Shown here: positions 22,324-39,367 of the stretch, piece by piece
Layout: each line of letters starts with the position of its first letter
How positions within the stretch are numbered: the first letter of the stretch is position 1
NCBI GenBank assembly: GCA_017625695.1
Contig: JAGAKI010000008.1
Coordinates: 80,331 to 120,517, forward strand
DNA: 40,187 nt
Reading direction: 5' to 3'
Origin: Clostridia bacterium
GTDB lineage: Bacteria; Bacillota; Clostridia; UMGS1840
Notes under the pieces: model-generated
The model's input: the letters and a program-made list of their open reading frames with translations, nothing else
Databases searched by the model: none
Told to the model about the DNA's origin: nothing
Made by a program: the position numbers and the translations under genes

Positions 22324-22348
22324 CAAAATGATAAAAATGGTGTATCAT
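22320..22348 (+). promoter_or_regulatory. sigma-A-type promoter overlapping the clpC stop
   Basis: TTGACA (22320-22325), 17-base spacer, TATCAT (22343-22348). The perfect -35 overlaps the clpC TGA stop (22321-22323). It would start transcription about 55 bases before the MBL-fold gene. No terminator is seen between clpC and this promoter. Confidence 0.7.
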
Positions 22349-23041: not shown

Positions 23042-24408
23042 AAAATGAGGTGGAGTCTTATCATTACGGGATTTACCACCTGTTAAAAATGATTTTTCCT
23101 TTTGATGAAATTATCTGTAACGCAGAAAACGCTGACCTGGATATTTCCTATCAAGTAGAAGATTCTTATGTGACCGCTGTTTGCAGCGGCAAAACCCATC
23201 GGGAACCAATCCTCAGAGATGATGTGCTTCTCACGTTAAAGCGTGCCATTTATCGGGTGACCGGAGCGGTCTTGCCTTTCGGAATTTTAACGGGTGTCCG
23301 TCCGTCTCAGACGGCGTTAAAATTTGCAGAAAATATTACCGATGGATTATCTTCTGTATATCTGGTTTCTCCTGAGAAAGCTGCTGTGATGGAGCAGTGT
23401 GCCCGTCAGGTGATTGCAACCGAAACAACCTTATCTCCAAAAGAAATATCCTTATATATTCATATTCCGTTTTGTCCGTCCCGATGCGGTTATTGTTCGT
23501 TTACACTGGAGTATTTGAAACCCTATTCCTTGCTAATTGACGACTATTTTACGGCACTTCTGACAGAAGTACGTGGAGTCATGGAAACGATTACGGAAAT
23601 TGGTCTTTTATTACACAGTGTTTATATCGGCGGTGGGACGCCAACCGTATTAACTGAAAAACAGCTGGAAAGTTTAATTTCCACGGTGTTGTCTTATCAG
23701 ACACCTAAAGAATTTTCGGTGGAAGCAGGCAGAGCCGACACCGTTACCTATGAAAAACTATCGGTATTGTCCCAACTGGGGGTCAATCGTATCAGTATCA
23801 ATCCCCAGACTTTAAATCAGAAAACCTTAGACAGAATCGGCAGACGGCATACGGTAGAAGAATTCTTTTATGCTTATGAGCTGAGTCGGAAATTTAGCTT
23901 TGATACCGTTAATACTGATTTGATTGCAGGATTACCCGGAGAAAACTTTTCAGATTTCAAAGCTTCGCTGGACGGTATTTTGAAGCTTTCTCCTGAGCAT
24001 ATCACCGTACATACCTTGTGTAAAAAGCGAACTTCCGATATGCGGATGCAATCCGATGTCCGGCAGTTTTCGGAAGCGGAACACATGCTTCGCTATTCCT
24101 ACGAAGTGTTAGCATCTACCTATGAGCCATATTATATTTACCGTCAGAAAAATGCAATCGCAGGATTAGAGAATGTTGGTTTTATGAAAAATCAGAAGGT
24201 ATGTGCATATAATATTTTTATGATGGAGGAAATCTCCTCCGTGGTAGCAGTCGGGGCAGGTGGAACCTCCAAACTTATTGATTTTAGCACCAAAAAGCCT
24301 TTTTCTAAGCTGCGTACCGATAAACAGCCGGAGCGGTACATGAGAGATTTAGATGAAATCCTACGGGAAAAGCAAAGGTTTTTGCGAGAGGGAAGCCACC
24401 TTTTATAA
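23026..24408 (+). CDS. hemZ: HemZ-type radical SAM protein (coproporphyrinogen dehydrogenase-like)
   Basis: 460-residue radical SAM protein of the HemN/HemZ group. The cluster motif is in HIPFCPSRCGYCSF (CxxxCxxC), followed by VYIGGGTPTVLTEKQLESL, SVEAGRADT and RISINPQT, which match HemN-family geometry. The long N-terminal region before the cluster (about 145 residues) separates HemZ from HemN/HemW. HemZ is linked to oxygen-independent coproporphyrinogen oxidation in Bacillus, but no other haem genes are in the window, so the physiological role is uncertain. Overlap with the upstream hydrolase suggests coupling. Confidence 0.88.
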   Translation: MVINLKNEVESYHYGIYHLLKMIFPFDEIICNAENADLDISYQVEDSYVTAVCSGKTHREPILRDDVLLTLKRAIYRVTGAVLPFGILTGVRPSQTALKFAENITDGLSSVYLVSPEKAAVMEQCARQVIATETTLSPKEISLYIHIPFCPSRCGYCSFTLEYLKPYSLLIDDYFTALLTEVRGVMETITEIGLLLHSVYIGGGTPTVLTEKQLESLISTVLSYQTPKEFSVEAGRADTVTYEKLSVLSQLGVNRISINPQTLNQKTLDRIGRRHTVEEFFYAYELSRKFSFDTVNTDLIAGLPGENFSDFKASLDGILKLSPEHITVHTLCKKRTSDMRMQSDVRQFSEAEHMLRYSYEVLASTYEPYYIYRQKNAIAGLENVGFMKNQKVCAYNIFMMEEISSVVAVGAGGTSKLIDFSTKKPFSKLRTDKQPERYMRDLDEILREKQRFLREGSHLL

Positions 24409-24432
24409 TGTGCGAACGAAGGAGGAACTAAG

Positions 24433-24966
24433 ATGAACATCTGGCATGATATGAGCGAGGAGAGAATCACTCCCGAGAAATTTTCTGCTGTCATCGAAAT
24501 TGAGAAAGGCGGAAAAAATAAATATGAACTGGATAAAGAAACCGGTCTTTTAAAATTAGACCGTGTGCTTTATACTTCTACTCACTATCCTGCAAATTAC
24601 GGATTTATTCCCCGTACCTATGCCCAGGACGGTGACCCGTTGGATGTGTTGGTTTTATGTACCGAAGGGATTATGCCCATGACAGTGGTAGAATGTTATC
24701 CCATCGGTGTTATCAAAATGATTGATGACGGGGCAGTGGATGAAAAAATTATCGCTGTCTGCGAAAATGACCCCTATCACAATTCCTTTCGTGATGTGTC
24801 AGAATTACCCAATCATTTATTTCACGAAATCAAGCATTTTTACGAAGTATATAAAATGTTGGAGTATAAAGAAACCATTGTGAATATGGTAGAAGGTGCT
24901 GATGTAGCAAGACAAGTAATTACCGAATGCATTGAACACTACAAAAAAGAATTCTTAGGACAGTAA
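24433..24966 (+). CDS. ppa: family I soluble inorganic pyrophosphatase
   Basis: Hydrolyses PPi to two phosphates, pulling biosynthetic reactions forward. 177 residues with the family I marks: IEIEKGGKNKYELDKETG, YPANYGFIPRTY and the metal-binding DGDPLDVLVL. A full AAGGAGG ribosome binding site precedes the ATG, predicting strong translation. Thirteen bases downstream begins a PPi-dependent phosphofructokinase, a PPi consumer, so the pair is functionally in tension. Confidence 0.96.
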   Translation: MNIWHDMSEERITPEKFSAVIEIEKGGKNKYELDKETGLLKLDRVLYTSTHYPANYGFIPRTYAQDGDPLDVLVLCTEGIMPMTVVECYPIGVIKMIDDGAVDEKIIAVCENDPYHNSFRDVSELPNHLFHEIKHFYEVYKMLEYKETIVNMVEGADVARQVITECIEHYKKEFLGQ

Positions 24967-24979
24967 AGAGGAGGACATC

Positions 24980-26182
24980 ATGAAGAATTTGTTGGTAGCA
25001 CAGTCCGGAGGACCTACTGCGGCAATTAATGCAAGCTTAGCAGGAGTGATCTTCGGAGCATTGAAAGAAACTAGTATTGATAAAATTTACGGTGCCGTTT
25101 ACGGTATCGAAGGAGTGCTGAGTGATACTCTTGTGGAGCTTGGTACCATTGATTTGGAAATCTTAAAGCAGACTCCGGCGGCATATCTTGGTTCCTGCCG
25201 GAAAAAGCTTCCGAATTTGAGTGATAATCCCAAGCTATACCAACAGATTTTCTCATATTTTCAGGAGAAGAACATTGGATATTTCCTCTATATCGGCGGA
25301 AATGACTCTATGGATACGGTTTGCAAATTATCCGATTATGCCAAAGAACATAACATTGATGTAAAAATCATAGGGATTCCCAAAACGATTGATAATGACC
25401 TTGCATATACAGACCACACTCCCGGCTTTGGTTCTGCAGCGAAATATGTGGCAACTACTGTAGCCGAGATTGCAGAGGACAGTATGGTGTACGATTTGAA
25501 ATCTGTAACTATTGTGGAAATTATGGGGCGTCATGCAGGTTGGCTGACCGGTGCTGCTGTTCTGGCAAGAAACGGCACCCGATCTGCACCTCATCTGATT
25601 TATTTGCCGGAAGTTTCGTTTTCCAAAGAACAGTTTGTGAGGGATATTGAAGCGTTATTTGACAAAGGAATCCACCAGGTGGTTGTGGCGGTTTCCGAAG
25701 GAATTCACGATAAAAACGGAACTTTAATTTGCGAAGGCGGAACCAGTGCAACCGATTCTTTCGGTCACGCTATGTTAAGCGGTGCGGGGAAAGCGTTGGA
25801 GAATCTTGTGAAAGCAGAGCTTGGTTGCAAAGCAAGAAGTGTAGAATTAAATGTGTGTCAGCGTTGTGCCGGACATTTATTATCTCAGACTGACAGTTCG
25901 GAAGCGTTTTCCATTGGAGAGTCGGGGGTAGCTTGTGCGGTGGCAGGGCAGAGCGGAGAAATGATGACGTTTGTCAGAATTTCTGACAATCCCTACAAAG
26001 TAAAAATTGAATCTGCCGATATTCATAAGAGTGCCAATGTGGAAAAATGTGTTCCTACTGAATGGATTATAAACGGCAACGACGTAGGGGAAGAACTTCT
26101 CAGTTACTTAAAACCTTTGATAGCAGGGGAAGTTAAGATTCAATATAACGAAAACGGACTTCCCAAACATTTATACAGATAG
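24980..26182 (+). CDS. pfp: pyrophosphate-type 6-phosphofructokinase
   Basis: Phosphorylates fructose-6-phosphate, here probably with PPi rather than ATP, and so runs reversibly in glycolysis and gluconeogenesis. 400 residues. QSGGPTAAINASL opens the phosphoryl-donor site. GGNDS (Gly106-Ser110) carries Asp109 where ATP-PFKs have Gly, the residue change that favours PPi. The catalytic PKTIDND follows (Asp138, Asp140), with MGRHAGWLTG after it. AGAGGAGG precedes the ATG. The donor is inferred from the motif, not proven. Confidence 0.93.
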   Translation: MKNLLVAQSGGPTAAINASLAGVIFGALKETSIDKIYGAVYGIEGVLSDTLVELGTIDLEILKQTPAAYLGSCRKKLPNLSDNPKLYQQIFSYFQEKNIGYFLYIGGNDSMDTVCKLSDYAKEHNIDVKIIGIPKTIDNDLAYTDHTPGFGSAAKYVATTVAEIAEDSMVYDLKSVTIVEIMGRHAGWLTGAAVLARNGTRSAPHLIYLPEVSFSKEQFVRDIEALFDKGIHQVVVAVSEGIHDKNGTLICEGGTSATDSFGHAMLSGAGKALENLVKAELGCKARSVELNVCQRCAGHLLSQTDSSEAFSIGESGVACAVAGQSGEMMTFVRISDNPYKVKIESADIHKSANVEKCVPTEWIINGNDVGEELLSYLKPLIAGEVKIQYNENGLPKHLYR

Positions 26183-26194
26183 GAAATTTTTAGA

Positions 26195-26926
26195 ATGTAT
26201 CAGGATTTTTCATATTATTATGACCGGTTTGCCTATGATATTGACTATGGCAAATTCTATGGATACTACAAAAAAATATTTGAAAAGTTTTCCCTGAATC
26301 CAAGTCTTGTGTTGGATATTTGTTGCGGTACGGGAACCTTAACCCGTCTGATGGCAAAGGATTACGAGATGATTGGCATAGATTTTTCCTGGGAAATGCT
26401 GGATGTTGCCAAAGAGAAAGACCCTGATGCAACCATACTATATCTCAATCAGTCTATGACGGACTTTGAACTTTACGGAACGGTAGATGCTTGTTATTCC
26501 TCGTTGGACAGTGTGAATTATCTTCTTACGAAAGAGGAACTGATCAAGCATTTTCAATTGGTTCATAATTACTTAAATCCTGACGGATTGTATATCTTTG
26601 ATATTTCCACCATTTATAAATTCCGCCATATTTTGGGCAATAACACATTTACCGACGAAACCGAAACCGAATTTTTCGTTTGGCAAAATACATATGAAGA
26701 CCGTCTTTTGACGATGGATTTGGATATCTTCTATCAGGAAGAAGACGGTTCTTACGGACGGGTATCCGAAACCCATTACGAAAGAGGATATACCATAGCT
26801 GAAATTACAAAAGCGGCAGAGAAGTGCGGTTTTTTTGTGGAGGGTGTGTATGATGAATTCACCTTCCATTCCGCCCATTCCAAAAGTGAACGGATATTTT
26901 TTGTGATAAGGAGCATAAAAAAGTGA
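26195..26926 (+). CDS. class I SAM-dependent methyltransferase
   Basis: 243-residue Rossmann-fold methyltransferase: motif I VLDICCGTGTLTRLMA, acidic loop IGIDFSWEMLDVA, then a region with YSSLDSVNYLL and LNPDGLYIFDI. The substrate is not evident; similar proteins are annotated only as class I methyltransferases. It lies 12 bases after the PFK gene and overlaps the miaB GTG start (GTGA), so it may be expressed with either group. The N terminus DFSYYYDRFAYDIDY is typical of the small-molecule methyltransferase subfamily. Confidence 0.85.
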   Translation: MYQDFSYYYDRFAYDIDYGKFYGYYKKIFEKFSLNPSLVLDICCGTGTLTRLMAKDYEMIGIDFSWEMLDVAKEKDPDATILYLNQSMTDFELYGTVDACYSSLDSVNYLLTKEELIKHFQLVHNYLNPDGLYIFDISTIYKFRHILGNNTFTDETETEFFVWQNTYEDRLLTMDLDIFYQEEDGSYGRVSETHYERGYTIAEITKAAEKCGFFVEGVYDEFTFHSAHSKSERIFFVIRSIKK

Positions 26927-28326
26927 TAGAATTTGTTTCCAAAGAGTGTATTGATACCCAAAAAGAATATATGAAAAATGTCCGCTTAAAAAACGAGGGG
27001 ACTAAGAAAACTGCTGTAGTGGTTACCTACGGATGTGCCCAAAATGAAACCGATTCGGACAAGCTGTATGCCATGCTCTTCCAAATGGGGTACGAAAAAG
27101 GCGATGATGAAAAAAATGCCGACCTTGTCATTTATAATACCTGTTCGGTTCGTGAAAATGCGGAAGTGAAGGTATACGGCAAAGTAGGTACGTTAAAAGC
27201 AAAAAAGAAAAAGAATCCGGATATGGTGATCGGTGTTTGCGGTTGTTTAATGCAACAGCCTCACGCCAGCGAGCGTATCAAAAAGACCTTTCCCTTTGTG
27301 GATATGGTGTTTGGTACCCACGTGATTCATGAATTTCCAAAAATGCTTCATCATGTGTTAACTGAACGGGAAAGGGTGTTCTCTGTAGATTCGGTGGACG
27401 GCGTGATTGCAGAAGGCGTTCCTGTGGTATATGACAAATGGTACAAGGCATCCATTCCCATTATGTACGGTTGCAACAATTTCTGTACATACTGTGTAGT
27501 ACCTTATACCCGTGGCAGAGAACGAAGCCGTAAATCTGAAGATATTTTAAAAGAAATCCATACCCTTTGTGAAAAAGGATTAAAAGAAGTAACTCTGCTT
27601 GGTCAGAATGTGAATTCCTACGGAAAAGACTTACAGGACGATTTGGATTTTCCCGATTTATTATCGGCAATCTGCGAAATCGACCAGATACAGCGGGTGC
27701 GGTTTGTGACTTCTCATCCCAAGGATTTAACCGACAAGTTAATTGCTGTTATGGGCAACAATAAAAAAATCTGTAACAGTTTGCACTTGCCGTTTCAGGC
27801 AGGAAACAACCGGGTGCTGAAGGAAATGAACCGTCGCTATACCCGTGAGGATTATCTTACTTTGGTTTCAAAAATCAGAGCAGCAGTTCCCGATATTGCA
27901 TTAACTTCTGACGTTATTGTGGGCTTTCCCGGCGAAACGGAAGAAGAATTTTATGATACCTTATCCTTAATTCGTGAGGTTCGGTTTGATAATTTGTTTA
28001 CTTTTATCTATTCTCCCAGAAAAGATACCAAAGCAGCGTTGATGGAGGATCCCAGAACCTACGAAGAAAAGCTTAAGAATTTTAACGAACTGTTGGAAGT
28101 GCAGACCGAAATCTGCAGGGAAGCTAACGAAGCTTATCTTAACAATACCTACGAAATTATCGATGAAGGCTTAAGTAAAAACAATTCCGAAATGCGTCAG
28201 GGCAGAACTACCACCAATAAGGTGATTAATTACAAAGCCAGAGCAGATGTCAAAGAAGGCGATTTTGTCACGGTAAAAGTGACCGAAGTAATGTCCTGGT
28301 CCTTAGTGGGTGTTCAGGAATGTTAG
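26923..28326 (+). CDS. miaB: tRNA-2-methylthio-N6-dimethylallyladenosine synthase MiaB
   Basis: Radical SAM methylthiotransferase converting i6A37 to ms2i6A37 in tRNAs reading UNN codons. 467 residues: N-terminal UPF0004 domain with cluster cysteines in YGCAQNETDSDK, NTCSVRENAE and CGCLMQQ; radical SAM motif in YGCNNFCTYCVVPYTRGRERSR; and a C-terminal TRAM region (TNKVINYKA...FVTVKVTEV). GTG start with AAGGAG nine bases upstream. Acts on the product of MiaA, encoded three genes downstream. Confidence 0.95.
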   Translation: MIEFVSKECIDTQKEYMKNVRLKNEGTKKTAVVVTYGCAQNETDSDKLYAMLFQMGYEKGDDEKNADLVIYNTCSVRENAEVKVYGKVGTLKAKKKKNPDMVIGVCGCLMQQPHASERIKKTFPFVDMVFGTHVIHEFPKMLHHVLTERERVFSVDSVDGVIAEGVPVVYDKWYKASIPIMYGCNNFCTYCVVPYTRGRERSRKSEDILKEIHTLCEKGLKEVTLLGQNVNSYGKDLQDDLDFPDLLSAICEIDQIQRVRFVTSHPKDLTDKLIAVMGNNKKICNSLHLPFQAGNNRVLKEMNRRYTREDYLTLVSKIRAAVPDIALTSDVIVGFPGETEEEFYDTLSLIREVRFDNLFTFIYSPRKDTKAALMEDPRTYEEKLKNFNELLEVQTEICREANEAYLNNTYEIIDEGLSKNNSEMRQGRTTTNKVINYKARADVKEGDFVTVKVTEVMSWSLVGVQEC

Positions 28327-28344
28327 AACAGGATGGATGAATCA

Positions 28345-30948
28345 ATGCAGATAGAAAAATTATCCCCTATGATGCAGCAGTATTTCCAGATAAAAAAAGA
28401 TTATGAAGATACGCTGTTGTTTTTTCGATTAGGCGATTTTTATGAAATGTTTTTTTCCGATGCGATAACCGCATCCCGTGAGCTTGAAATTACGTTGACA
28501 GGCAGAGACTGCGGTCAGGAGGAGCGGGCACCGATGTGCGGTGTTCCGTATCACAGTGCCGAAACCTACATTTCCCGACTGATAAAAAAAGGGTATAAAG
28601 TTGCCATCTGTGAACAGGTGACAGATCCCAAAGCTGCAAAGGGGATTGTAGAACGTGCGGTGGTAAGAATTATCACCCCCGGTACTTTTTCTGATACCAA
28701 TGCACTGGACGAAAAATCAAACCATTATCTGGCTTCTGCATATCTTACCAAAAAAGGTGCAGGGGTTACCTTTTCCGATATTACCACGGGAGACGTTTCT
28801 ACCACTGAATTTACAGGGAATGATTTTATCTCTCACCTAATCAGTGAACTGGTAAAATATGCACCTGCTGAAATTTTAGTAAATTCTGAAGCTTTGGTAC
28901 ATAAAAACTTTCTTTCTTCCATCAAAGAAAGAATCAATACCCGATTTGAAGCCGTGGACGATTCCTTTTACAGCTTTTCCAATGTAGAAGAAACCTTATC
29001 CAAACGGTTTGAAGCTTTTTGGGAAAAGAAAGATGAACTGATAAAAAAAGAGTTGTCCTATTTTTCCTTAGCGGCTTGTCTTTATTACATTGACAAAACG
29101 CAAAAAACAGAGCTTCGTCATATCACTGAATTTGACTATTATGATTCCAAAAGCTTTCTGGAAATTGACGATTGTGCCAAACGGAATCTGGAACTGACCG
29201 AAACCATGCGGGATAAAAAACGTCAGGGTTCCTTATTCGGTGTGCTGGATGAAACAAAAACTTCGATGGGTGCCCGTATGCTCAAACGATTTATTGAACG
29301 TCCTTTGGTTAACCGCACCGAAATTGAACGACGTCTGGATGCGGTAGAGGAATTAACCTGTAATCAACCGGATGCAGATGCAATCCGCACCCATTTGAAA
29401 GAAATTCGTGATGTAGAGAGATTGCTCTCCAAGATTTCGTTGAAAACGGTAAATGGTCGTGACCTACTGGCACTTCGTGATTCCTTCCGGGTATTGCCGG
29501 ATTTGAAAGAAATTGTGGGGAAATTTCAGTCCACCTTATGGAAACAGATGTACCGTAACTGGGATTCTTTGGAAGATATTTTCAAAGAAATTGATGCCTC
29601 AATTTCCGAGGAGGCACCCTTAACCATCCGTGAGGGAGATATCATCAAAGACGGATATCACGAAGAAATTGATAAAATCCGTGCCATGAAGAAAAACAGC
29701 AAATCCATTTTGCTGGAATTAGAAAATAAAGAACGGGAAAAGACCGGCATTGCCAAATTAAAAACAGGCTATAATAAGGTTTTCGGCTACTATATTGAAG
29801 TCACCAAATCCTATCAGGATTTGGTTCCCGATTATTTTATCAGAAAACAAACCTTAGCCAATTGTGAACGTTACATCACAGGAGAGCTAAAAGAAATAGA
29901 AGAAGTGCTGTTAAGTGCAGAAGAAAGAATTACGGAACTGGAATATCAGGTGTTCTGTCAGATTCGGGAAATGATTTTCAAAAATTCCGAGCGAATCAAG
30001 AAAACCGCAGATATCATCAGTTATCTGGATGTGTTAGGCTCGTTTTATGAAACTGCTTTAACCAACAATTATGTAAAACCTGAATTTAATTCGCAAAATC
30101 AGATTGAAATTTTAGATGGCAGACACCCTGTTGTAGAACAGGCAAGAAAAGATGTTTTATTTGTGTCAAACGATACAAAACTGACGGAACAACAGCATTT
30201 TGCCATTATCACAGGACCCAATATGGCAGGGAAATCCACCTATATGCGTCAGGTTGCCTTAATCTGCATTATGGCACAGATGGGCTCCTTTGTTCCAGCG
30301 AAATTTGCCTCGCTGACCGTTTTGGACAAGGTGTTCACCCGTGTAGGAGCTTCCGACGATTTGGCAATGGGACAGTCTACCTTTATGGTGGAAATGACGG
30401 AAGTATCCTCCATTTTAAAAAATGCCACCAAACAGAGTCTTGTCATTTTAGATGAAATCGGACGTGGGACAAGTACCTACGACGGTTTGTCTATTGCGTG
30501 GGCGGTAGTGGAATATATCTGCGAAAAAATCGGTGCAAAAACTTTATTCGCTACTCATTATCACGAACTGACCCAGCTGGAAGAGAAAATGGCACCCGTG
30601 AAGAATTACTGTGTTGCAGTCAAAAAGCGTGGAGACGACATTACCTTCCTCCGCCGCATTATTGAGGGCGGTGCTGATGACAGCTATGGGGTGGAGGTTG
30701 CCAAATTAGCCGGCATCCCCAATCAGGTAATCAAACGTGCCCAGGCATTGGTTCGGGATTTAGAGGGAGAGAAAACCGAACTGCAGATTGCTCCCAAAGC
30801 GGTGACAGAAGACAACAGTCAATCCTTTGCCGGAATTTTATCTATGAATCTGGTGGCAGAACTTCAAAAAACTGATGTGACTACCTTAACCCCCTTAGAA
30901 GCTTTGAATCTTTTGAATCATTTGGTGAATGAAGCCAAAAAAATCTAA
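28345..30948 (+). CDS. mutS: DNA mismatch repair protein MutS
   Basis: Mismatch sensor ATPase. About 867 residues from ATG 28345, placed by the AGGATGG motif upstream; an in-frame ATG at 28333 adds four residues. The mismatch-wedge motif is GDFYEMFF near the N terminus. The ABC-type ATPase has Walker A GPNMAGKSTYMRQ, signature region STFMVEM, LVILDEIGRGTSTYDG and FATHYHEL. Length and domain order fit MutS1. It lies between miaB and mutL, a frequent clostridial order. Confidence 0.96.
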   Translation: MQIEKLSPMMQQYFQIKKDYEDTLLFFRLGDFYEMFFSDAITASRELEITLTGRDCGQEERAPMCGVPYHSAETYISRLIKKGYKVAICEQVTDPKAAKGIVERAVVRIITPGTFSDTNALDEKSNHYLASAYLTKKGAGVTFSDITTGDVSTTEFTGNDFISHLISELVKYAPAEILVNSEALVHKNFLSSIKERINTRFEAVDDSFYSFSNVEETLSKRFEAFWEKKDELIKKELSYFSLAACLYYIDKTQKTELRHITEFDYYDSKSFLEIDDCAKRNLELTETMRDKKRQGSLFGVLDETKTSMGARMLKRFIERPLVNRTEIERRLDAVEELTCNQPDADAIRTHLKEIRDVERLLSKISLKTVNGRDLLALRDSFRVLPDLKEIVGKFQSTLWKQMYRNWDSLEDIFKEIDASISEEAPLTIREGDIIKDGYHEEIDKIRAMKKNSKSILLELENKEREKTGIAKLKTGYNKVFGYYIEVTKSYQDLVPDYFIRKQTLANCERYITGELKEIEEVLLSAEERITELEYQVFCQIREMIFKNSERIKKTADIISYLDVLGSFYETALTNNYVKPEFNSQNQIEILDGRHPVVEQARKDVLFVSNDTKLTEQQHFAIITGPNMAGKSTYMRQVALICIMAQMGSFVPAKFASLTVLDKVFTRVGASDDLAMGQSTFMVEMTEVSSILKNATKQSLVILDEIGRGTSTYDGLSIAWAVVEYICEKIGAKTLFATHYHELTQLEEKMAPVKNYCVAVKKRGDDITFLRRIIEGGADDSYGVEVAKLAGIPNQVIKRAQALVRDLEGEKTELQIAPKAVTEDNSQSFAGILSMNLVAELQKTDVTTLTPLEALNLLNHLVNEAKKI

Positions 30949-30961
30949 CCAAGGAGTACGT

Positions 30962-32899
30962 ATGGGAACCATTCATGTATTAGACCGATTGCTTTCCGAT
31001 ATGATTGCCGCAGGCGAGGTTGTGGAACGCCCCTCCTCGGTGGTCAAGGAATTATTTGAAAATGCAAAAGACGCAGGTGCCGGCAGAATTACCGTGGAAA
31101 TTGAAGAAGGCGGAAAAAAACGGATCTCTCTGACCGATGACGGCTGTGGTATGGACCGTGAGGATGCAGTACTCTCGGTGGTTCGTTATGCCACCAGCAA
31201 ATTAAAAACCAAAGAAGATTTGTTTTCTATTTCTACGATGGGATTCCGCGGAGAAGCGTTGGCAAGTATCTGTGCAGTTTCCAAAGTAACCATGGTCACC
31301 CGAAAGGAAGATGCACTGTCCGGCACTATGCTGGTCTGCGAGGGTGGAGAAGTGGTAACGGTGGAAGATATCGGTTGTCCCGTGGGGACTAAAATTACCG
31401 TAGAAAATCTATTCTATAATACTCCCGCAAGACTCAAATTTTTAAAAAAAGATGCCACTGAGGGTGCCTATATTGAGGAAATTGTGGCACGCTTGATTCT
31501 ATCCAATCCTCATTTGTCAATCAAGTTTATCAAAGATGGACGTCAGATTTATTATTCCAAAGGAGATAATGATATCCGTTCTGCAGTTTATGCAGTTTAT
31601 GGAAGTCAGTTGTCTGAACAACTGATTATGGTGGATGCTGAGAAAAACGGGGTTGCTATTTCGGGCTGTGTGGGTTCTCCCAACCTGGCAAGACCTACCC
31701 GTAAATTTGAAAATTTCAGTGTCAACGGCAGAATCTGTAAATCAAAAATTCTGATTCAAGCCTTAGAATATGCTTATTTTCAGAAAATGGCACAGGGAAA
31801 ATACCCTTTCTGTGCATTGGATATCCGTGTGGATTATACCTTATGTGATGTGAATGTGCATCCCCAGAAGGCAGAAGTGAAATTTTCTGATGAGCAAAGT
31901 ATTTATGACGCTTTATATAACGCTGTAAAGGACGCCTTGGAAGAAAAACTCTTTGTCAAGGAAACCACGACCGTTCCCATTGCGACCTCAAAAGCGGTGC
32001 AATATGATGAAGAACCAAAAACATATCAGCAAAACTCTTTCTTAACAAAAGAACCTGTTCCGGTGAGAGAAACAACCACCAAAAAGCAGGAACCAATTTT
32101 CAACCAGTTAAACGATTTTACGTTCATGAGAGAATCGAAAACAGAGACAGAACCTGTTATGATCAAACAAGAACCGGTTATCACTCAAATTGAACTTTCC
32201 AAACAAGAAATTACAGAAGAAAAAGAAGTATCAACCGAAGAGGAAAAAGCAGCAGAGATTCTTTTAGATCAATCAAAACCAACAGAAGAAATCCCGGAAC
32301 GGATTCCCGAAGAACCCCAGGAACCGGATGAGGATTTTCGTGTTATCGGGCAAGTGTTTTCTTCTTACATTTTAATCGAAAAAGGGGATGAGTTGCTTCT
32401 TTTGGATCAGCATGCCGCTCACGAACGGTTGAATTATGAAAAAATCCACCGTCAGATGACTGAGAGAGCCATTCATTCTCAGCTTTTGATGGTTCCGCAA
32501 ATTATAGAATTTGCCCCTACAGATTACCGACTGCTACTGGAACACTTGGAGCTTTTGCAAAATGTGGGGATTACAGCGGATGATTTTTCCGATAACTCCA
32601 TTGTTGTTCGGGAAATTCCCTGCGAAGTCAAAGAGAAGAATATTGAAAAATTAATATACGAAATTTTAGAAGAAATCAAAAAAAGCGGAAAGGTATTGCC
32701 TCAAAACTTTAATTTGAAATTACTGTTTTTGGTAGCTTGTAAAATGAGTGTCAAAGCAAATACCAAATTGTCTATGTATCAGATGGAAAAACTGACCAAA
32801 GAAGCATTTGCCCTGAACGGGAAAACCACTTGTCCTCACGGCAGACCGCTGTTTATCTCTTTTTCCAAAACAACCATTGAAACCAAATTTGAACGATAG
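30962..32899 (+). CDS. mutL: DNA mismatch repair endonuclease MutL
   Basis: 645 residues from ATG 30962, with AAGGAG (30951-30956) before it; the longer in-frame start at 30929 overlaps mutS. GHKL ATPase motifs: ELFENAKDAGA, DDGCGMDRED, GFRGEALASI. A variable linker (about 340-460, rich in Glu/Lys/Thr) leads to a dimer domain with the endonuclease motif DQHAAHERLNYE (Asp482 on), which exactly fits DQHAx2Ex4E. ACKMSVKA and CPHGRP, which help form the metal site, follow. So it should nick DNA itself, as expected for bacteria without MutH. Confidence 0.96.
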   Translation: MGTIHVLDRLLSDMIAAGEVVERPSSVVKELFENAKDAGAGRITVEIEEGGKKRISLTDDGCGMDREDAVLSVVRYATSKLKTKEDLFSISTMGFRGEALASICAVSKVTMVTRKEDALSGTMLVCEGGEVVTVEDIGCPVGTKITVENLFYNTPARLKFLKKDATEGAYIEEIVARLILSNPHLSIKFIKDGRQIYYSKGDNDIRSAVYAVYGSQLSEQLIMVDAEKNGVAISGCVGSPNLARPTRKFENFSVNGRICKSKILIQALEYAYFQKMAQGKYPFCALDIRVDYTLCDVNVHPQKAEVKFSDEQSIYDALYNAVKDALEEKLFVKETTTVPIATSKAVQYDEEPKTYQQNSFLTKEPVPVRETTTKKQEPIFNQLNDFTFMRESKTETEPVMIKQEPVITQIELSKQEITEEKEVSTEEEKAAEILLDQSKPTEEIPERIPEEPQEPDEDFRVIGQVFSSYILIEKGDELLLLDQHAAHERLNYEKIHRQMTERAIHSQLLMVPQIIEFAPTDYRLLLEHLELLQNVGITADDFSDNSIVVREIPCEVKEKNIEKLIYEILEEIKKSGKVLPQNFNLKLLFLVACKMSVKANTKLSMYQMEKLTKEAFALNGKTTCPHGRPLFISFSKTTIETKFER

Positions 32900-32908
32900 G
32901 AGAGTCCG

Positions 32909-33826
32909 ATGAATCAGGTTATTGTCATTGCGGGGCCTACCGCTTCGGGAAAAACCGGGCTGTCGGTTGAGGTCGCAAAACAATTACATACAGAAATTGT
33001 ATCTGCGGATTCTATGCAAATATACCGGGAGATGAATGTGGGAACCGCGAAGGTAACAAAAGACGAAATGTGTGGAATCGTTCATCATATGATTGATATC
33101 GTATCACCTATGGAAAACTATAATGTCAGCCGTTATGTGGAGGATGCAAAACCCATTGTGGATGGTATATTAGCCAAAGGAAAAATCCCGATAATTGCAG
33201 GTGGTACCGGTCTTTATATCAATTCTTTGGTCTATGGCTATGACCTTGCTCCTATTGGGGGAGATGATGCTGTTCGTGCAGAAATTACCCGGCTTTACGA
33301 AGAAAAGGGCGGAGAATTCCTCTTGGAAGAACTGCGTAAAATTGACCCGAAAACCGCAGACAGACTTCATCCCAACAATGCCAGACGTCTCATTCGTGCA
33401 TTGGAGGTTTATCGTATTTCGGGCACCACCATTTCCGAACAGGAGGAACGCACCAAAAACGCCCCAAAGCCCTATGATGTGAAATTTTTTGTGCTGGATA
33501 CCGAACGGGACAAGTTATATGAGCGGATTAACCGACGGGTGGATATCATGCTGGAAAACGGTTTGGTGGAAGAGGTGAAAACGCTTTTAAAGCAGGGAAT
33601 TCCCAAAACCAATACCGCTATGCAGGCAATCGGTTATAAAGAAATTGTAGAATTTTTAGACGGATATTTAACCTTGGAGGAAGCGGTGGAAAAACTGAAA
33701 ATGGAATCCCGCCGTTATGCCAAACGTCAGTTGACCTGGTTCCGGAGAAACGAGGGAGCCATTTGGCTGGAAGCAACGTTGCCAAAAGAAGAACTGGCAA
33801 TGCAAATTGTAAATATGATAGAATAA
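32909..33826 (+). CDS. miaA: tRNA dimethylallyltransferase MiaA
   Basis: Adds dimethylallyl to A37 of tRNAs reading UNN codons, supplying the substrate of MiaB. 305 residues with P-loop GPTASGKTGLS, SADSMQIYREMNVGTAK, GGTGLYINSL, NARRLIRALEVY and the C-terminal QAIGYKEIVEFLDG. AGGAGA precedes the ATG, nine bases after mutL. The two A37-modifying genes bracket mutS-mutL. Confidence 0.96.
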   Translation: MNQVIVIAGPTASGKTGLSVEVAKQLHTEIVSADSMQIYREMNVGTAKVTKDEMCGIVHHMIDIVSPMENYNVSRYVEDAKPIVDGILAKGKIPIIAGGTGLYINSLVYGYDLAPIGGDDAVRAEITRLYEEKGGEFLLEELRKIDPKTADRLHPNNARRLIRALEVYRISGTTISEQEERTKNAPKPYDVKFFVLDTERDKLYERINRRVDIMLENGLVEEVKTLLKQGIPKTNTAMQAIGYKEIVEFLDGYLTLEEAVEKLKMESRRYAKRQLTWFRRNEGAIWLEATLPKEELAMQIVNMIE

Positions 33827-33837
33827 AGGTGAATTCA

Positions 33838-35082
33838 ATGGAAGAAACAAGAAAAAAGCACTATAAGCATAAAAAAATCCCCACATTCTACAAGGTGGGA
33901 GTACTTGCTATCATCGTCTTTTTCGGGATTGCCATGTACCTGTATTTTCATCCCAGCTTCAGTACTCAGGTGGTATACCACGGGACGGAAGAAGTGGTGA
34001 TTCCGGCAAAAGGCATCCTGGTATGGAATGAGGAAGTGCTTACTTCCAGCGCCAAAGGAATTGCAGTTATGAACTATTCCGACGGAACCCGTGTGACTGC
34101 AAGAACCCACGTGGCAAGTGTATATTCCGGAGAAATTGATGAAGCGAAAAGCAACAGTATTAAGTCCTTGAGCGAAAAAATCAACAGTTTGGAAACCGGT
34201 ATCAAAAACAGCAACCGGGATTCCAAGGGAACAGAAAGCAGCAGTTCTGTTATCCTGAAGAAAATGCGTAAAATTGCGTATTATTCTCAGGATGGTGATT
34301 TTCAGTCTTTGCTAAAGGAAACCAATGATATTGAATCTATGGCGTTGGGTCAGGGAGACAGCACTCCGGAAAAAGAATTGGAAAAACTGAAAAATCAGCG
34401 TGACGATTTGGAACGGACCATTACCGGACATAAAGATGCGTTTTATTCCGCTACCTCCGGTTTGATTTATTCTAAGGTGGACGGTTATGAAACTACCATC
34501 AATAAGACCACTGTACAGAATGCTGACACTAAGCTGTTTTCCAATCTTTGGAATCTGAAACCGGTGGATTACAGCAAAACGGACGGGAATTATGTATTCG
34601 GAAAAATCATTAACAATTATGAAGCTACCATGCTTGCCGAAATTTCTGCAAAAGAAGCGGAAGGAATTGAGGTAGGAGATGTGTTGTATATCAAATCTTC
34701 CGATGTCATCGGCGGAAAAATTGCTTGTACCGTTACTGCAGTATCTATCGGCAGAAGCGATGCGGTATTAACGCTTTCCGTAACCAAAAATCTGGATACT
34801 TTAATGGGCGAAAGAAAGCTGGATTTTGATTTGGTGAAAAAGACGTATTCCGGTCTTCGGATTCCCAAAGAAGCTATTTTAGGGGATGAAAATGAACCTT
34901 TTGTATATGCCATCAAGGATAGCGTAGTGAAGAAGAAACCGGTTGAAATTTTGTGCGAAAAGAACGAATTTGTGATTGTAAAAGAAGATAATCAGAATTC
35001 CGATAACGTTCTTTTATATGATTTGGTCATTACAAAATCCAAGAATCTGACCGAGGGGATGATTGTGTCGGACCCCCGATAA
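33838..35082 (+). CDS. HlyD-like membrane-anchored adaptor protein
   Basis: 414 residues from ATG 33838 (AAAGGTG just upstream; the longer frame from 33763 runs over miaA). A basic cytoplasmic start is followed by one helix about 18-38 (VGVLAIIVFFGIAMYLYF), then a barrel-sandwich-like segment, a predicted coiled coil (about 105-215, e.g. LEKLKNQRDDLERTI) and a C-terminal beta region. This layout resembles HlyD/RND adaptors, but no ABC or RND partner gene is beside it. In Clostridia such proteins are often found just upstream of yggS-sepF, suggesting an envelope or division-associated role. Function unproven. Confidence 0.75.
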   Translation: MEETRKKHYKHKKIPTFYKVGVLAIIVFFGIAMYLYFHPSFSTQVVYHGTEEVVIPAKGILVWNEEVLTSSAKGIAVMNYSDGTRVTARTHVASVYSGEIDEAKSNSIKSLSEKINSLETGIKNSNRDSKGTESSSSVILKKMRKIAYYSQDGDFQSLLKETNDIESMALGQGDSTPEKELEKLKNQRDDLERTITGHKDAFYSATSGLIYSKVDGYETTINKTTVQNADTKLFSNLWNLKPVDYSKTDGNYVFGKIINNYEATMLAEISAKEAEGIEVGDVLYIKSSDVIGGKIACTVTAVSIGRSDAVLTLSVTKNLDTLMGERKLDFDLVKKTYSGLRIPKEAILGDENEPFVYAIKDSVVKKKPVEILCEKNEFVIVKEDNQNSDNVLLYDLVITKSKNLTEGMIVSDPR

Positions 35083-35111
35083 ATTTTTTGGAAAAAAACA
35101 GAGAAAAAGGG

Positions 35112-35144
35112 ATGATTCCAATTGACAATATCGGAAAAACTTGA
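35112..35144 (+). other. possible 10-codon leader peptide overlapping the yggS start
   Basis: An ATG at 35112, closely preceded by AAAAAGGG, opens a frame that reads MIPIDNIGKT and then stops. It overlaps the TTG start of yggS in another frame. It may be chance; coupling to yggS is only a possibility. Confidence 0.2.
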
Positions 35145-35150
35145 TATAAT
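35122..35150 (+). promoter_or_regulatory. full-consensus extended -10 sigma-A promoter inside yggS
   Basis: TTGACA (35122-35127), 17-base spacer, TATAAT (35145-35150), with TGA directly before the -10 giving the extended TGnTATAAT. Every consensus position matches. Its predicted start (about 35157) lies inside the first codons of yggS, so transcripts would lack the TTG start codon and would mainly feed sepF, ylmH and the downstream genes. Confidence 0.75.
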
Positions 35151-35835
35151 AAAATATAATATATCTGACAGTGCAAAAAAATCGGGGAGACGTGCCGAAG
35201 ACATTCTTTTGTTGCCGGTAACCAAAACCAGAACCCCCGAAGAGATTATGCCTGCATTGGAATGTGGCGTTCGTGCTATTGGAGAAAACTATGTTCAGGA
35301 ATTGGTGGCAAAATACGATGTATTAGCCCCTTATGTAGACGAATTTCATATGATTGGGCATTTGCAGTCCAACAAAGTAAAATACATTGCAGATAAGGTC
35401 AGTCTGATTCATTCTGTGGATTCTTTGTCCTTGATGAAAGAGATTGACAAGCAGGCAAAAAAACACGAAAAAGTGCAGGATGTTCTTCTGGAGGTTAATC
35501 TTACCAAAGAAGCTTCCAAATCCGGCATTTACGAAGAGAATCTGGAACGCCTTTTCTGGGAAAGCAAAAATTTTTCCAATCTGTTGGTAAAGGGATTCAT
35601 GACGATGCCGCCTGCGGGAAGCTCTGAGGATACGCTCAGAAGAATTTTTTCGAGGCTGTATCAGTTGTTTTGCAAATTTGCCCTTGAGGATGCTTCTGTG
35701 GAAATCTTATCTATGGGAATGAGTCACGATTATCAGATTGCCATTGAAGAAGGGGCGACACTGGTCAGAGTAGGGTCTGCAATTTTCGGCCCCCGCGATT
35801 ACACGAAAATATCAAACCGGGATACCGGGATATAA
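35122..35835 (+). CDS. YggS/YlmE-family PLP-binding protein
   Basis: 237-residue alanine-racemase-fold protein that binds pyridoxal phosphate and keeps PLP/amino-acid balance; it has no known catalytic activity. The PLP Lys is in LLLPVTKTRTPEEI. Later marks: AIGENYVQELVAKYD, FHMIGHLQSNKVKYI, HSVDSLSLMKEID, SMGMSHDYQIAIEEGATLVRVGSAIFG. Homology begins right after the TTG start (SEKLDIIKYNI aligns with family N termini), so TTG 35122 is probably right although it coincides with a -35 box. Sits before sepF as ylmE does in Bacillus. Confidence 0.92.
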   Translation: MTISEKLDIIKYNISDSAKKSGRRAEDILLLPVTKTRTPEEIMPALECGVRAIGENYVQELVAKYDVLAPYVDEFHMIGHLQSNKVKYIADKVSLIHSVDSLSLMKEIDKQAKKHEKVQDVLLEVNLTKEASKSGIYEENLERLFWESKNFSNLLVKGFMTMPPAGSSEDTLRRIFSRLYQLFCKFALEDASVEILSMGMSHDYQIAIEEGATLVRVGSAIFGPRDYTKISNRDTGI

Positions 35836-35853
35836 CTTGAGAGGAGAGCCATT

Positions 35854-36303
35854 ATGTTTGGTGCAATTAAGAAAAAATTAATTGATTTCGGTCTGCTGGA
35901 AGAGGAAGAAGAATTAGAAGAAGAGGTTGAGAAAATCTTTAAACAAAAAGAAGCTTCTCAAAAAGAACCTAAAGAAACTCTGCAGGCTCCCAAAAAAGGA
36001 AAAATTGTAAATATTCACACTACCACTCAGTTGAAAGTTGTAGTAGTGCAGCCTATGGCATTTGAAGATTCCAAAGAAATTGCTGATCATCTGAAAACCA
36101 AAAAACCCATCGTTGTAAATCTGGAAAACATCGACCGTGAAGTTGCAAAACGGATTATCGACTTTTTATCCGGTGCAGTTTATTCTTTGGACGGTAATAT
36201 CCAGAAAATTTCCAACGGAATTTTCCTGATTGTTCCGTATAATATGGGCATTATGGGAGATTTTAAAGACGAGCTTCGTAATAAAGTTGTCTTTCCGTTT
36301 TAA
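35854..36303 (+). CDS. sepF: cell division protein SepF
   Basis: FtsZ-binding, ring-forming divisome protein that anchors the Z-ring to the membrane. 149 residues: an N-terminal amphipathic membrane-targeting helix (MFGAIKKKLIDFGLL), an acidic/Glu-rich linker (about 17-50), and the conserved C-terminal domain from VVVVQPMAFEDSKEIADHL through VVNLENIDREVAKRIIDFLSGAVYSLDG. GAGAGGAG precedes the ATG. Position after yggS and before ylmH/divIVA is the usual division cluster; ylmG, present in Bacillus between sepF and ylmH, is missing. Confidence 0.95.
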   Translation: MFGAIKKKLIDFGLLEEEEELEEEVEKIFKQKEASQKEPKETLQAPKKGKIVNIHTTTQLKVVVVQPMAFEDSKEIADHLKTKKPIVVNLENIDREVAKRIIDFLSGAVYSLDGNIQKISNGIFLIVPYNMGIMGDFKDELRNKVVFPF

Positions 36304-36317
36304 TTGTCAATCATTCT

Positions 36318-37079
36318 ATGCTGAATAAAACAGAATTATTAAATCGGATTTCGGACAAGGAAGACCGGATTCTTCTGTCTTCTGTTTACGATAAGCTGGA
36401 AAAATCTTATCAAAAAGGATACCCCATTTATTCTGATTTTTTGGATGAGCGGCAAATTGCACTGGCAAAACAGCTCTTTTCCTTTTATCGGGATGAGTTA
36501 TGTTTTTCCGGCGGGGTTTCCAATGCAGAACGCCAATTGTGCTATCTGGACTTTGGCTATGGAGAGTTGCCTGTGAAAATCATTGGGATTTCTTCGTCTG
36601 CAGGAAATAAATTTGGGCATCGTGATGTGTTGGGCGCGCTGATGGGCCTTGGCATCAAACGACAGAAATTGGGAGATATTGTAGTTGGGGATGTTTCTTA
36701 TTTTCTGGTGAAAGAAGAAATTGTTTCTTTTGTGATGGAAAATCTTAACACGGTGGGACGTTATCCGGTCAGTTTAGAAATTTTAGAAAACACTTCGTTG
36801 GAAAAAGAACAGAATTTTTCTTACCGAAGCACAACTGTTTCTTCTCTTCGGTTGGATTGTCTGGTGAGCGATATTGCCAAACTTTCCAGAGAAAAGGCGA
36901 AAGAACTGATTCTTGCCGGTAAGGTTAAGGTGAATCATTTTGAAACCACGCAGTATAATAAACAGCTTTCTGCGGGGGATTTAATTTCCATTTCTCAAAA
37001 AGGAAGATTTGTTCTGGAACAAATGGAAGGCATCACCCGAAAAGACAGAATGAAAATTTTGATAAAAAAATACGAATAA
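36318..37079 (+). CDS. ylmH: YlmH-family S4-domain RNA-binding protein
   Basis: 253 residues: N-terminal YlmH domain (YSDFLDERQIALAKQLF, GVSNAERQLCYLDFGYG, GALMGLGIKRQKLGDIVVGD), then a C-terminal S4 RNA-binding fold (LRLDCLVSDIAKLSREKAKELILAGKVKVNH). YlmH has been linked to rescue of stalled 50S-peptidyl-tRNA complexes in Bacillus, and its gene is always near sepF/divIVA. The start region has almost no Shine-Dalgarno, so translation may depend on sepF, whose stop is 14 bases upstream. A hairpin begins at its stop codon. Confidence 0.93.
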   Translation: MLNKTELLNRISDKEDRILLSSVYDKLEKSYQKGYPIYSDFLDERQIALAKQLFSFYRDELCFSGGVSNAERQLCYLDFGYGELPVKIIGISSSAGNKFGHRDVLGALMGLGIKRQKLGDIVVGDVSYFLVKEEIVSFVMENLNTVGRYPVSLEILENTSLEKEQNFSYRSTTVSSLRLDCLVSDIAKLSREKAKELILAGKVKVNHFETTQYNKQLSAGDLISISQKGRFVLEQMEGITRKDRMKILIKKYE

Positions 37080-37107
37080 GGCATAGGAGAAGTTCTCTTA
37101 TGCCTTT
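37078..37107 (+). terminator. hairpin at the ylmH stop, possible attenuator
   Basis: Near-perfect inverted repeat AAGGCATAGGAGAA (37078-37091) / TTCTCTTATGCCTT (37093-37106), with one G-U pair and a tight loop, starting within the ylmH stop codon. Only three T residues follow, so read-through or an mRNA processing/stability role is as likely as full termination. Confidence 0.5.
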
Positions 37108-37133
37108 GTGCGAAAAAAGGGAGAATGAAAAGG

Positions 37134-37574
37134 ATGTATACACCGATCGAACTTGAAAATATCAGCTTTAAAAAATCGGCATTTGGTTATGATAAAGACG
37201 AGGTCCTGGAGTTTTTGGAAACTATTTCGCGGGACTACGATAAGCTTTACAAAGAAAATCTGACCTTAAAAGATAAAAACAATATGCTCTCCAACGCAAT
37301 TAAAGAATATAAATCTATGGAAGATGCTCTGCGGGATACCGTAGTTACTGCCCATTCCATTTCAGATGAAGTGAAAAAGAATGCCCATAAGGAAGCAGAA
37401 AATATTATCAAAGAAGCAAATCTGCAAAAGGACGAAATGCTTGCTAAGGCAAATCGGGAGATTGAAGCTATTCAGACTGAAATTACTTCTTTAAAGCAAG
37501 AGTTCAGCATCTATAAATCCAAAATCAAAAGCCTGATTCATTCTCAGATTGAGATTCTGGAATTAGATAAATAA
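37134..37574 (+). CDS. divIVA: DivIVA-domain protein
   Basis: Pole/septum-binding coiled-coil protein. About 146 residues from ATG 37134, where AAGGGAG (37117-37123) gives a normal spacing; the in-frame ATG at 37125 is too close to it. The N-terminal membrane-binding domain has the family pattern TPIELENISFKKSAFGYDKDEVLEFLE, followed by long heptad-rich coiled coil (about residues 35-140). Shorter than Bacillus DivIVA (about 164). Last of the sepF-ylmH-divIVA group and probable organiser of polar or sporulation-septum factors. Confidence 0.92.
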   Translation: MYTPIELENISFKKSAFGYDKDEVLEFLETISRDYDKLYKENLTLKDKNNMLSNAIKEYKSMEDALRDTVVTAHSISDEVKKNAHKEAENIIKEANLQKDEMLAKANREIEAIQTEITSLKQEFSIYKSKIKSLIHSQIEILELDK

Positions 37575-37587
37575 CACGAGGTGTTTT

Positions 37588-38043
37588 ATGTTTTGTTATC
37601 TTGGAATTGTTCTTAGTATCGTATTTTTCACCCGTTTGCTTGCTTATTGGGGAATTACGGTTTTAAAAGCAGGGGATATCACGCTGATTCCTCAAATTCT
37701 CTATCTTAGCTATGTGGAGAATCGCGGTGCTGCCTTTGGTATTTTTCAGGATGCAAAGGTATTTTTGATTGTGGTTCCGGTCATCTTGTTTTTGGCGATT
37801 ACTTATTATGTAGTCAGCCGTAGAAAACACTTAAAACTCTCTTTGTTGCTTCCGCTTTCTATGGTAGCCGGCGGCGGGATTTCCAATGTGGCAGACCGTT
37901 TGAGCTTCGGCTATGTGGTGGATTATATTGATGTACGAGTAATTCGGTATCCGGTTTTTAATCTGGCGGATATTTGTGTGGTGTTGGGGGTTTTCTGGAT
38001 TGCAGGATACATTTTGTTTTCCAAAGATACCAAACAACAGTAG
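37588..38043 (+). CDS. lspA: lipoprotein signal peptidase (signal peptidase II)
   Basis: Membrane aspartyl protease that removes signal peptides from prolipoproteins. 151 residues, four hydrophobic segments. Family motifs: ENRGAAFGIF, SNVADRLSFGYVVDYIDV with catalytic Asp103, and FNLADI with Asp128. Both catalytic Asp are present. ACGAGGTG precedes the ATG. It is followed after 14 bases by the pseudouridine synthase gene, the conserved lspA-rluD pair. Confidence 0.96.
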   Translation: MFCYLGIVLSIVFFTRLLAYWGITVLKAGDITLIPQILYLSYVENRGAAFGIFQDAKVFLIVVPVILFLAITYYVVSRRKHLKLSLLLPLSMVAGGGISNVADRLSFGYVVDYIDVRVIRYPVFNLADICVVLGVFWIAGYILFSKDTKQQ

Positions 38044-38057
38044 AAAAGGGTGGCACC

Positions 38058-38960
38058 ATGGAACTTACGGTTCAGACCTTGGAAAAAATCAGAGTAGATA
38101 AATATTTGGCAGAAGCTTCTGAAGAACTAACCCGTAGCCATGCACAGAAGCTGATTGAAGATGGCTTGGTTACGGTAAACGGACAAGTTGCCAGTAAAAA
38201 AACAGCAGTAACTTCCGGAGATGTAATTTCTTTCACACTTCCCGACCCGCAGGAGTTAGAAGCCAAAGAAGAAAATATTCCCCTGGAAATATTGTATGAA
38301 GATGACGCTTTGATTGTGGTGTATAAACCGAGGGGAATGGTGGTTCATCCCGCCAACGGAAATCAGGAGGGTACCTTGGTGAATGCACTTTTGTATCATT
38401 GTAAGGGACGCCTTTCTTCCATCAACGGGGTTGTCCGTCCCGGGATTGTGCATCGGATTGATAAAGATACCAGCGGTATTTTGCTGGTTGCCAAAACGGA
38501 TGCAGCACATCTTTCTTTGGCAGAACAAATTAAAGAACATTCGGTGAAACGGGAATATGTGGCGTTGTTGGACGGTGTGATCAAACACGAGAACGGCACC
38601 GTCAATAAACCGATCGGAAGAAGTGAAAAAGACCGCAAAAAAATGGCGATTACCATGCGGAATTCCCGCAATGCAATCACACATTATGAAGTGCTGGAAC
38701 GTTATGCGGGGTATTGCCTGGTGAAATGTCGGCTGGAGACAGGCAGAACTCATCAGATTCGTGTGCATATGGCGAGTCTGGGACATCCGGTGACCGGAGA
38801 TACAGTTTATGGCTCCAAAAAACAGAAGCTATTCCAAAGAGGGCAGCTTCTTCATGCGAAAACGATTGGATTTATTCATCCCACCACGGGAGAATATATG
38901 GAATTTACTTCTGAGCTTCCCTCGGAATTTCAGGAAGTTTTGAGAAAATTAAAACAGTAG
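38058..38960 (+). CDS. RluD-family 23S rRNA pseudouridine synthase (RluA/RluD family)
   Basis: 300 residues from ATG 38058, behind AAAGGGTGG; an in-frame start at 37974 lies inside lspA. N-terminal S4 domain (RVDKYLAEASEELTRSHAQKLI), then the RluA-family catalytic domain with GMVVHPANG, catalytic Asp135 in HRIDKDTSGILLVAK and RTHQIRVHMA. The exact uridines modified cannot be set from sequence; the size and S4 domain fit RluD (23S 1911/1915/1917 region). Confidence 0.94.
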   Translation: MELTVQTLEKIRVDKYLAEASEELTRSHAQKLIEDGLVTVNGQVASKKTAVTSGDVISFTLPDPQELEAKEENIPLEILYEDDALIVVYKPRGMVVHPANGNQEGTLVNALLYHCKGRLSSINGVVRPGIVHRIDKDTSGILLVAKTDAAHLSLAEQIKEHSVKREYVALLDGVIKHENGTVNKPIGRSEKDRKKMAITMRNSRNAITHYEVLERYAGYCLVKCRLETGRTHQIRVHMASLGHPVTGDTVYGSKKQKLFQRGQLLHAKTIGFIHPTTGEYMEFTSELPSEFQEVLRKLKQ

Positions 38961-38974
38961 AAGGAATTTTTGCG

Positions 38975-39367
38975 ATGAAAACTTTAGAAGAAATACGTTC
39001 TTTTTTTGAAAACGACCGTTTTGCTACGGAGAATGCAATGGTGATTGACGAAGTAGCTGATGGTTATGCGAAATGCAGTATGCTGATTTCTGAACGTCAC
39101 AGAAACGCTGTAGGTGGTGTAATGGGCGGTGTACCGTTTACATTAGCAGACTTTACTTATGCGGTTGCTGTTAATCATCAGGAACCTAAATGGGTGTCCT
39201 TAAGTGCCAATATCACTTTTTTAGGTGTGACAAAAGGAGAAAAACTCATTGCAGAAGCCAATGTAGTAAAATCCGGAAGAACCACCAATTATTATCGTGT
39301 GGACGTGTGTGATGAGTTGGGTCATCCGGTTGCTTGCGTTACGATTACCGGTTACTCCAAAGGATAA
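38975..39367 (+). CDS. PaaI-family hotdog-fold thioesterase
   Basis: 130 residues with the hotdog-fold pattern of PaaI/YdiI-type thioesterases: NAVGGVMGGVPFTLADFTYAVAVN (the Gly-rich helix with acidic Asp), then LSANITFLGVTKGEKLIAEANVVKSGRTTNYYRVDV. Hydrolyses a CoA or other acyl thioester; substrate unknown. GAAGGAA precedes the ATG. Last intact gene in the window. Confidence 0.88.
   Translation: MKTLEEIRSFFENDRFATENAMVIDEVADGYAKCSMLISERHRNAVGGVMGGVPFTLADFTYAVAVNHQEPKWVSLSANITFLGVTKGEKLIAEANVVKSGRTTNYYRVDVCDELGHPVACVTITGYSKG

Follow-up and report, generated by a model that had tools for sequence, protein, structure and literature searches.

A likely sigma-A promoter embedded in the first codons of yggS upstream of sepF in a genus of Clostridia

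The yggS-sepF operon and the start codon of yggS

The window analyzed here is a stretch of 40,187 nucleotides from a Clostridia bacterium (contig JAGAKI010000008.1), and the features of the operon all lie on its plus strand. From 22412 to 39367, the genes are co-directional with short gaps, in the order metallo-hydrolase, hemZ, inorganic diphosphatase, PPi-phosphofructokinase, methyltransferase, miaB, mutS, mutL, miaA, hlyD-like gene, yggS, sepF, ylmH, divIVA, lspA, rluD and thioesterase. An operon-head promoter, TTGACA-N17-TATCAT (TATGAT in genomes G001 and G002), is located at 22320 to 22348, 12.8 kb upstream of yggS. The hlyD-like gene (33838 to 35082, start approximate; PF12700) belongs to the same operon and ends 39 bases before yggS. 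By profile match, the vitamin-B6-homeostasis gene yggS (35122 to 35835) encodes a 237-residue protein of the YlmE/PLPBP family (TIGR00044) and starts with TTG. It is followed by sepF (35854 to 36303; PF04472), ylmH, which encodes an S4-domain RNA-binding protein (36318 to 37079; PF17774), divIVA (37125 to 37574; PF05103) and lspA (37588 to 38043; TIGR00077).

We compared the window's genome with four other genomes of the genus, in which YggS identity is 66 to 76%. Predicted hairpins between hlyD and yggS differ across the five genomes, and none is conserved as a terminator. No FtsA match was detected in the genus. When the window was compared with G001, identity was 55% for hlyD and 67% for yggS, while the upstream genes miaB, mutS and miaA were 95%, 92% and 90% identical; the lower likeness of hlyD and yggS hints that this end of the operon has recombined or has evolved faster.

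The TTG codon is conserved as the yggS start in all five genomes. A Shine-Dalgarno-like AAGGG lies ahead of it at 35107 to 35111, and this purine stretch is conserved in the genus (AAAGGAG in most relatives, otherwise AAAGGAC). The TIGR00044 match begins at YggS residue 2, in agreement with the initial annotation, which had placed the beginning of the family homology at this TTG; the relatives likewise gave no sign of a YggS start clearly elsewhere. Four genomes have an in-frame stop 0 to 3 codons 5' of the TTG, and in the remaining one this region lacks any start codon; in three genomes a TGA immediately precedes the TTG, and in the window the stop is three codons before it. An upstream alternative start was ruled out by these in-frame stops and the lack of start codons. 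The ATG at 35112 was also rejected, being in another frame with an ORF of 10 codons that is absent from the relatives. Codon 4 reads TCG, GCC, GCT, GCA or GCG across the five genomes; since the codon differs and yet Ala is kept in four of them, the frame is evidently translated here and the TTG start is sound. The comparison thus gives good support to TTG as the only plausible start of yggS.

A full-consensus extended -10 sequence at the yggS start

The sequence at 35122 to 35150 reads TTGACA ATATCGGAAAAACTTGA TATAAT. It matches the consensus at 12 of 12 positions with a spacer of 17 bases, and a TG at 35142 to 35143, one base 5' of the -10 hexamer, completes an extended -10 promoter sequence of the sigma-A/sigma-70 type. 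This is the sole 12/12 match within the window. The -35 hexamer (35122 to 35127) consists of the TTG start codon and the ACA of codon 2. In the spacer (35128 to 35144), GAAAAACTTGA is invariant in the five genomes and codon 4 is variable; AAAAA occupies spacer positions 8 to 12 in the genus. The -10 hexamer (35145 to 35150) lies within the codons GAT ATA ATA (D8 I9 I10). Placed by spacing at a purine 6 to 8 bases past the -10, the predicted transcription start site would fall at 35156 to 35158, inside yggS. Our reading therefore upholds the initial annotation, which had described a perfect extended -10 consensus whose -35 box opens with the yggS start codon and whose predicted transcription start lies within the gene.

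We found that the exact pattern TTGACA-N17-TATAAT occurs at 71 sites in the window's genome versus 1 site for the pattern read backwards, and at 236 versus 4 sites in the four other genus genomes, which indicates that perfect matches are as a rule genuine promoters. When the 71 sites were classified by an ORF check, with ambiguous cases judged by eye, 3 fell within coding sequence (in yggS, an aldose-epimerase-like gene and a phage-like gene), and the remaining sites were non-coding, mostly just 5' of a gene. Only the yggS site overlaps a start codon. Since about one in-gene perfect match per genome is expected by chance, a lone match of this kind is weak evidence, and conservation must decide.

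Conservation of the predicted promoter bases within the genus

The TTG, both hexamers, the 17-base spacing and the TG are kept in all five genus genomes, which retain TTG ACA ... GAA AAA CTT GAT ATA ATA. Within codons 2 to 11, seven of the eight degenerate codons with an invariant amino acid are identical in all five genomes. The corresponding figures are 14 of 112 (12%) in the rest of yggS (Fisher P = 1.4e-5) and 192 of 929 over the remaining sequence of the eight genes compared (Fisher P = 1.2e-4), where the P values assume independence of codons. Codons 5 to 10 form the longest run of identical codons in the eight genes, and codons 1 to 10 rank at the top of 1737 windows for third-position identity. 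Disfavoured codons are among those fixed in the promoter: in this operon, Ile is encoded by ATA in only 8% of cases and Thr by ACA in 15.5%. At the protein level, residue 9 is Ile in the window but in only 5 of 102 members of the wider family, where it is mostly polar, and the Lys at position 6 is unusual, as 83 of 102 other family members have Asn. The initial annotation had proposed to examine in relatives whether the hexamers are conserved beyond codon needs, and in all five genomes they are.

It could be argued that a chance match has been kept by constraints on coding or on the start region (A-rich, unstructured 5' codons; the motif TIxEKLDIIK) and has no promoter activity. The expected rate of about one in-gene match per genome fits such an origin, and so does the start of the methyltransferase gene (26195 to 26230; MYQDFSYYYD), at which 7 of 7 codons are identical in four genomes with no promoter present; codon conservation at gene starts can thus have other causes. 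However, chance does not readily account for the fixation of the disfavoured codons ACA, CTT, ATA and ATA in five species while spacer codon 4 differs in each, for a yggS start that is TTG and never ATG in the genus, or for an Ile9 that is atypical of the family, and other genes do not in general show such fixed codons at their starts. We therefore consider a chance match improbable.

The start-codon promoter is carried by five genomes of a single genus, and among about 100 other loci no promoter matching at least 11 of 12 positions was found within 150 bases of the yggS start. A search for conserved RNA structure around the yggS start gave 20 weak pairs, many of them broken.

Predicted transcription from the site within yggS

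On the plus strand downstream of the operon head at 22320 and up to 39.4 kb, no site other than that at 35122 matches 11 or more of the 12 positions. In all five genomes the site lies within yggS and is followed by sepF-ylmH-divIVA-lspA, from which we infer transcription of these four genes without an intact YggS.

The explanation that we regard as likely is that a housekeeping (sigma-A) promoter lies within the first ten codons of yggS, that it drives sepF-ylmH-divIVA-lspA without YggS, and that its position has turned over. Initiation at 22320, at the operon head, would give long transcripts with all genes, on which YggS could be translated beginning at the TTG. RNA initiated at the embedded site would begin about 35 bases into yggS, past the start codon and ribosome-binding site of that gene, and would express sepF (the first intact gene on the predicted transcript), ylmH, divIVA and lspA but not YggS. 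The division genes could probably be expressed in this way without making YggS. Against this explanation we count that sepF would be reached only after about 700 bases of untranslated leader. The promoter would in turn constrain YggS to a TTG start, ACA at codon 2 and Ile (ATA) at position 9. The sequence, its conservation, the constraint on codons and the fixed element of other Clostridia are direct observations, and from them we infer transcription, the sigma factor, the effect on expression and the direction of turnover.

A working promoter may instead yield, as its main product, an N-terminally truncated YggS starting at codons 29 to 30 or at Met43, or a short RNA within yggS. An ATG or TTG is present near codons 29 to 31 in all five genomes, as is Met43, but the start codon near position 29 shifts its place between genomes, and Met43 falls past the PLP lysine (K35). 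For a short RNA, a terminator-like hairpin within yggS at 35623 was considered and rejected, as it is not conserved, and an Rfam search near yggS returned a chance match only. Products of either kind seem very improbable.

A promoter-like element near the 3' end of yggS in other Clostridia

We also scanned the whole of yggS at 108 other Clostridia loci, comprising relatives from the same order and many other Clostridia, with a further 80 loci included. At 55 of the 108 loci, in 21 of 42 families, the last third of yggS carries the sequence TTGACA-N17-VATAAT, always at the same position. In these 55 loci, an exact TTGACA is located 44 bases before the codons for LSMGMS, and 51 of them score 11 to 12 of 12. 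The distribution of scores is bimodal, with nearly all other loci at 8 or below. In a set of 69 loci from mixed phyla, none scored above 8 at the fixed 3' position. The exact long pattern occurred in 6 of 398 genomes of a phylum sample, all of the same class, although this pattern is too strict for measuring spread. The predicted transcription start of the 3' element is about 107 bases 5' of the yggS stop, and sepF is the next gene after yggS at 54 of the 55 loci, the remaining locus ending at a contig edge.

The Asp codon within the -35 of the 3' element is GAC at 55 of 55 loci, although GAC encodes just 33% of the Asp residues in the remainder of those genes, while the Asp codon within the -10, 21 bases downstream, is GAT by 39 to 1. 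The codon before the -35 Asp is ATT, GTT or CTT, with TT constant and the amino acid variable. These codon choices show the signature of selection at the DNA level.

The 3' element and the start-codon promoter are alike in their gene, -35 box, spacing, downstream sepF and constraint at the codon level. Unlike the start-codon promoter, the 3' element lies about 540 bases downstream, has G, A or C at -12 and a conserved A-tract at spacer positions 9 to 13, lacks the TG and is absent from the genus. At the corresponding place in the window (35663 to 35691, AGTTGT...GAGGAT), the fixed-place scan found no element, and only 2 to 3 of 12 positions match in all five genus genomes.

It is conceivable, if doubtful, that the 3' element is some other DNA or RNA signal and no sigma-A promoter, and that the two sites are unrelated. 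In its favor, T is found at -12 at only 1 of the 55 loci and there is no TG, AAA occupies spacer positions 10 to 12 in 48 of 55 loci versus 10 of the 71 perfect sites in the window's genome, and TTGACA-N17-VATAAT is only weakly enriched genome-wide. Both the A-tract and the scarcity of T at -12 set the 3' element apart from the ordinary sigma-A promoters of that genome. On the other hand, TTGACA is exact at 55 of 55 loci and stands exactly 17 bases from ATAAT, sepF follows at 54 of 55, the Asp, Asn and His codons at this place can explain the bases other than T at -12, and a promoter within ylmE, the yggS orthologue, has been reported in Streptomyces coelicolor (PMC5943314).

The 3' element also bears on whether the start-codon promoter acts chiefly to limit YggS. 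RNA polymerase can be slow to leave a full-consensus promoter that has TG, and a polymerase held at such a site may form a roadblock to read-through, with the weak TTG lowering YggS further. The enforcement of a TTG start by the -35 box is in line with this, but a roadblock at the gene start leaves unexplained the fixed element near the gene end in other Clostridia, and we consider it an unlikely main function.

Proposed turnover of the promoter position

The independent 3' element, fixed in place within yggS at 55 of 108 loci, counts in favor of the embedded promoter, as it shows that in other Clostridia this gene also keeps a promoter-like sequence ahead of sepF. In the sister family, the 3' element is present in four of four genomes, which favors its loss in the window's genus. 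A YggS tree required at least 18 changes of element state and did not join the window's genus to the sister family, so the loss of the 3' element is deduced from taxonomy. In this lineage, the promoter seems to have changed its place within yggS. The simplest wider account would be that in many Clostridia sepF and the genes behind it are served by a promoter within yggS, and that the genus has lost the fixed 3' site and has the start-codon site in its stead.

More broadly, yggS of Clostridia may have been shaped repeatedly by an embedded sepF promoter. In about half of the lineages it would sit at the fixed 3' place and impose (V/I/L)D(I), and in this genus a stronger replacement at the start codon would impose TTG, Thr2-ACA and Ile9; the linkage of yggS and sepF would then be held partly by the promoter and not by protein cooperation alone. 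We give this broader proposal about an even chance of being correct. No link was found between the 3' element and the absence of FtsA, as the 21 FtsA-positive genomes comprised, by hand count, 12 with the element and 9 without it.

Relation to known systems

Promoters internal to operons are of a known kind and common. In Streptomyces coelicolor, an additional promoter within ylmE before sepF was reported from a redD reporter, with data not shown (PMC5943314). That promoter lies in the same gene before the same division gene, and it explains polar effects of ylmE deletion; it differs from the present case in that it belongs to another phylum, its position was not given, there was no conservation analysis, and an extra promoter is found in the ylmE-sepF intergenic region (PMC5943314). 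In Clostridioides difficile, internal transcription start sites inside operon coding sequences have been documented, and, as here, internal promoters shift the ratio of co-transcribed genes (PMC7438776); the main text of that study contains no start-codon case and does not mention sepF, divIVA or lspA. Our literature search found no transcription start mapping in ylmE of a Firmicute, and, in mostly open-access articles taken without supplements, no promoter whose -35 is the yggS start codon and no class-wide 3' element. The overlap with the start codon, the constraint at the codon level and the turnover are apparently new.

YggS/YlmE adjoins sepF in many bacteria, and a role in division has been argued from this neighbourhood and from deletion phenotypes that are possibly polar. 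A sepF promoter inside yggS, if true, would explain concretely why the two genes stay linked, and deletion of yggS would then be predicted to upset the expression of sepF, a polar disturbance already suspected in Streptomyces (PMC5943314). In C. difficile, sepF is essential and ftsA is lacking (PMC12548448); together with the lack of detectable FtsA in the window's genus, this suggests that the supply of SepF should matter. The yggS start would also be a clean case of selection at the DNA level fixing a start codon and amino acids.

Other perfect promoter sequences within genes

The third in-gene perfect match of the window's genome lies on the minus strand within the phage-like protein gene (locus L102). 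The second is at the 3' end of the aldose-epimerase-like gene (locus L106, 1546 to 1574, and locus L179, G000:C8), and the membrane transporter gene downstream of it resembles an AEC-type permease, as named from its sequence. At three further loci (L100/L184, G000:C5; L181, G001:C13; L185, G003:C45), the epimerase gene is reduced to a fragment, in some cases with stops, while TTGACA-N17-TATAAT is retained before a similar permease. At these three loci, it appears that the gene decayed and the promoter stayed.
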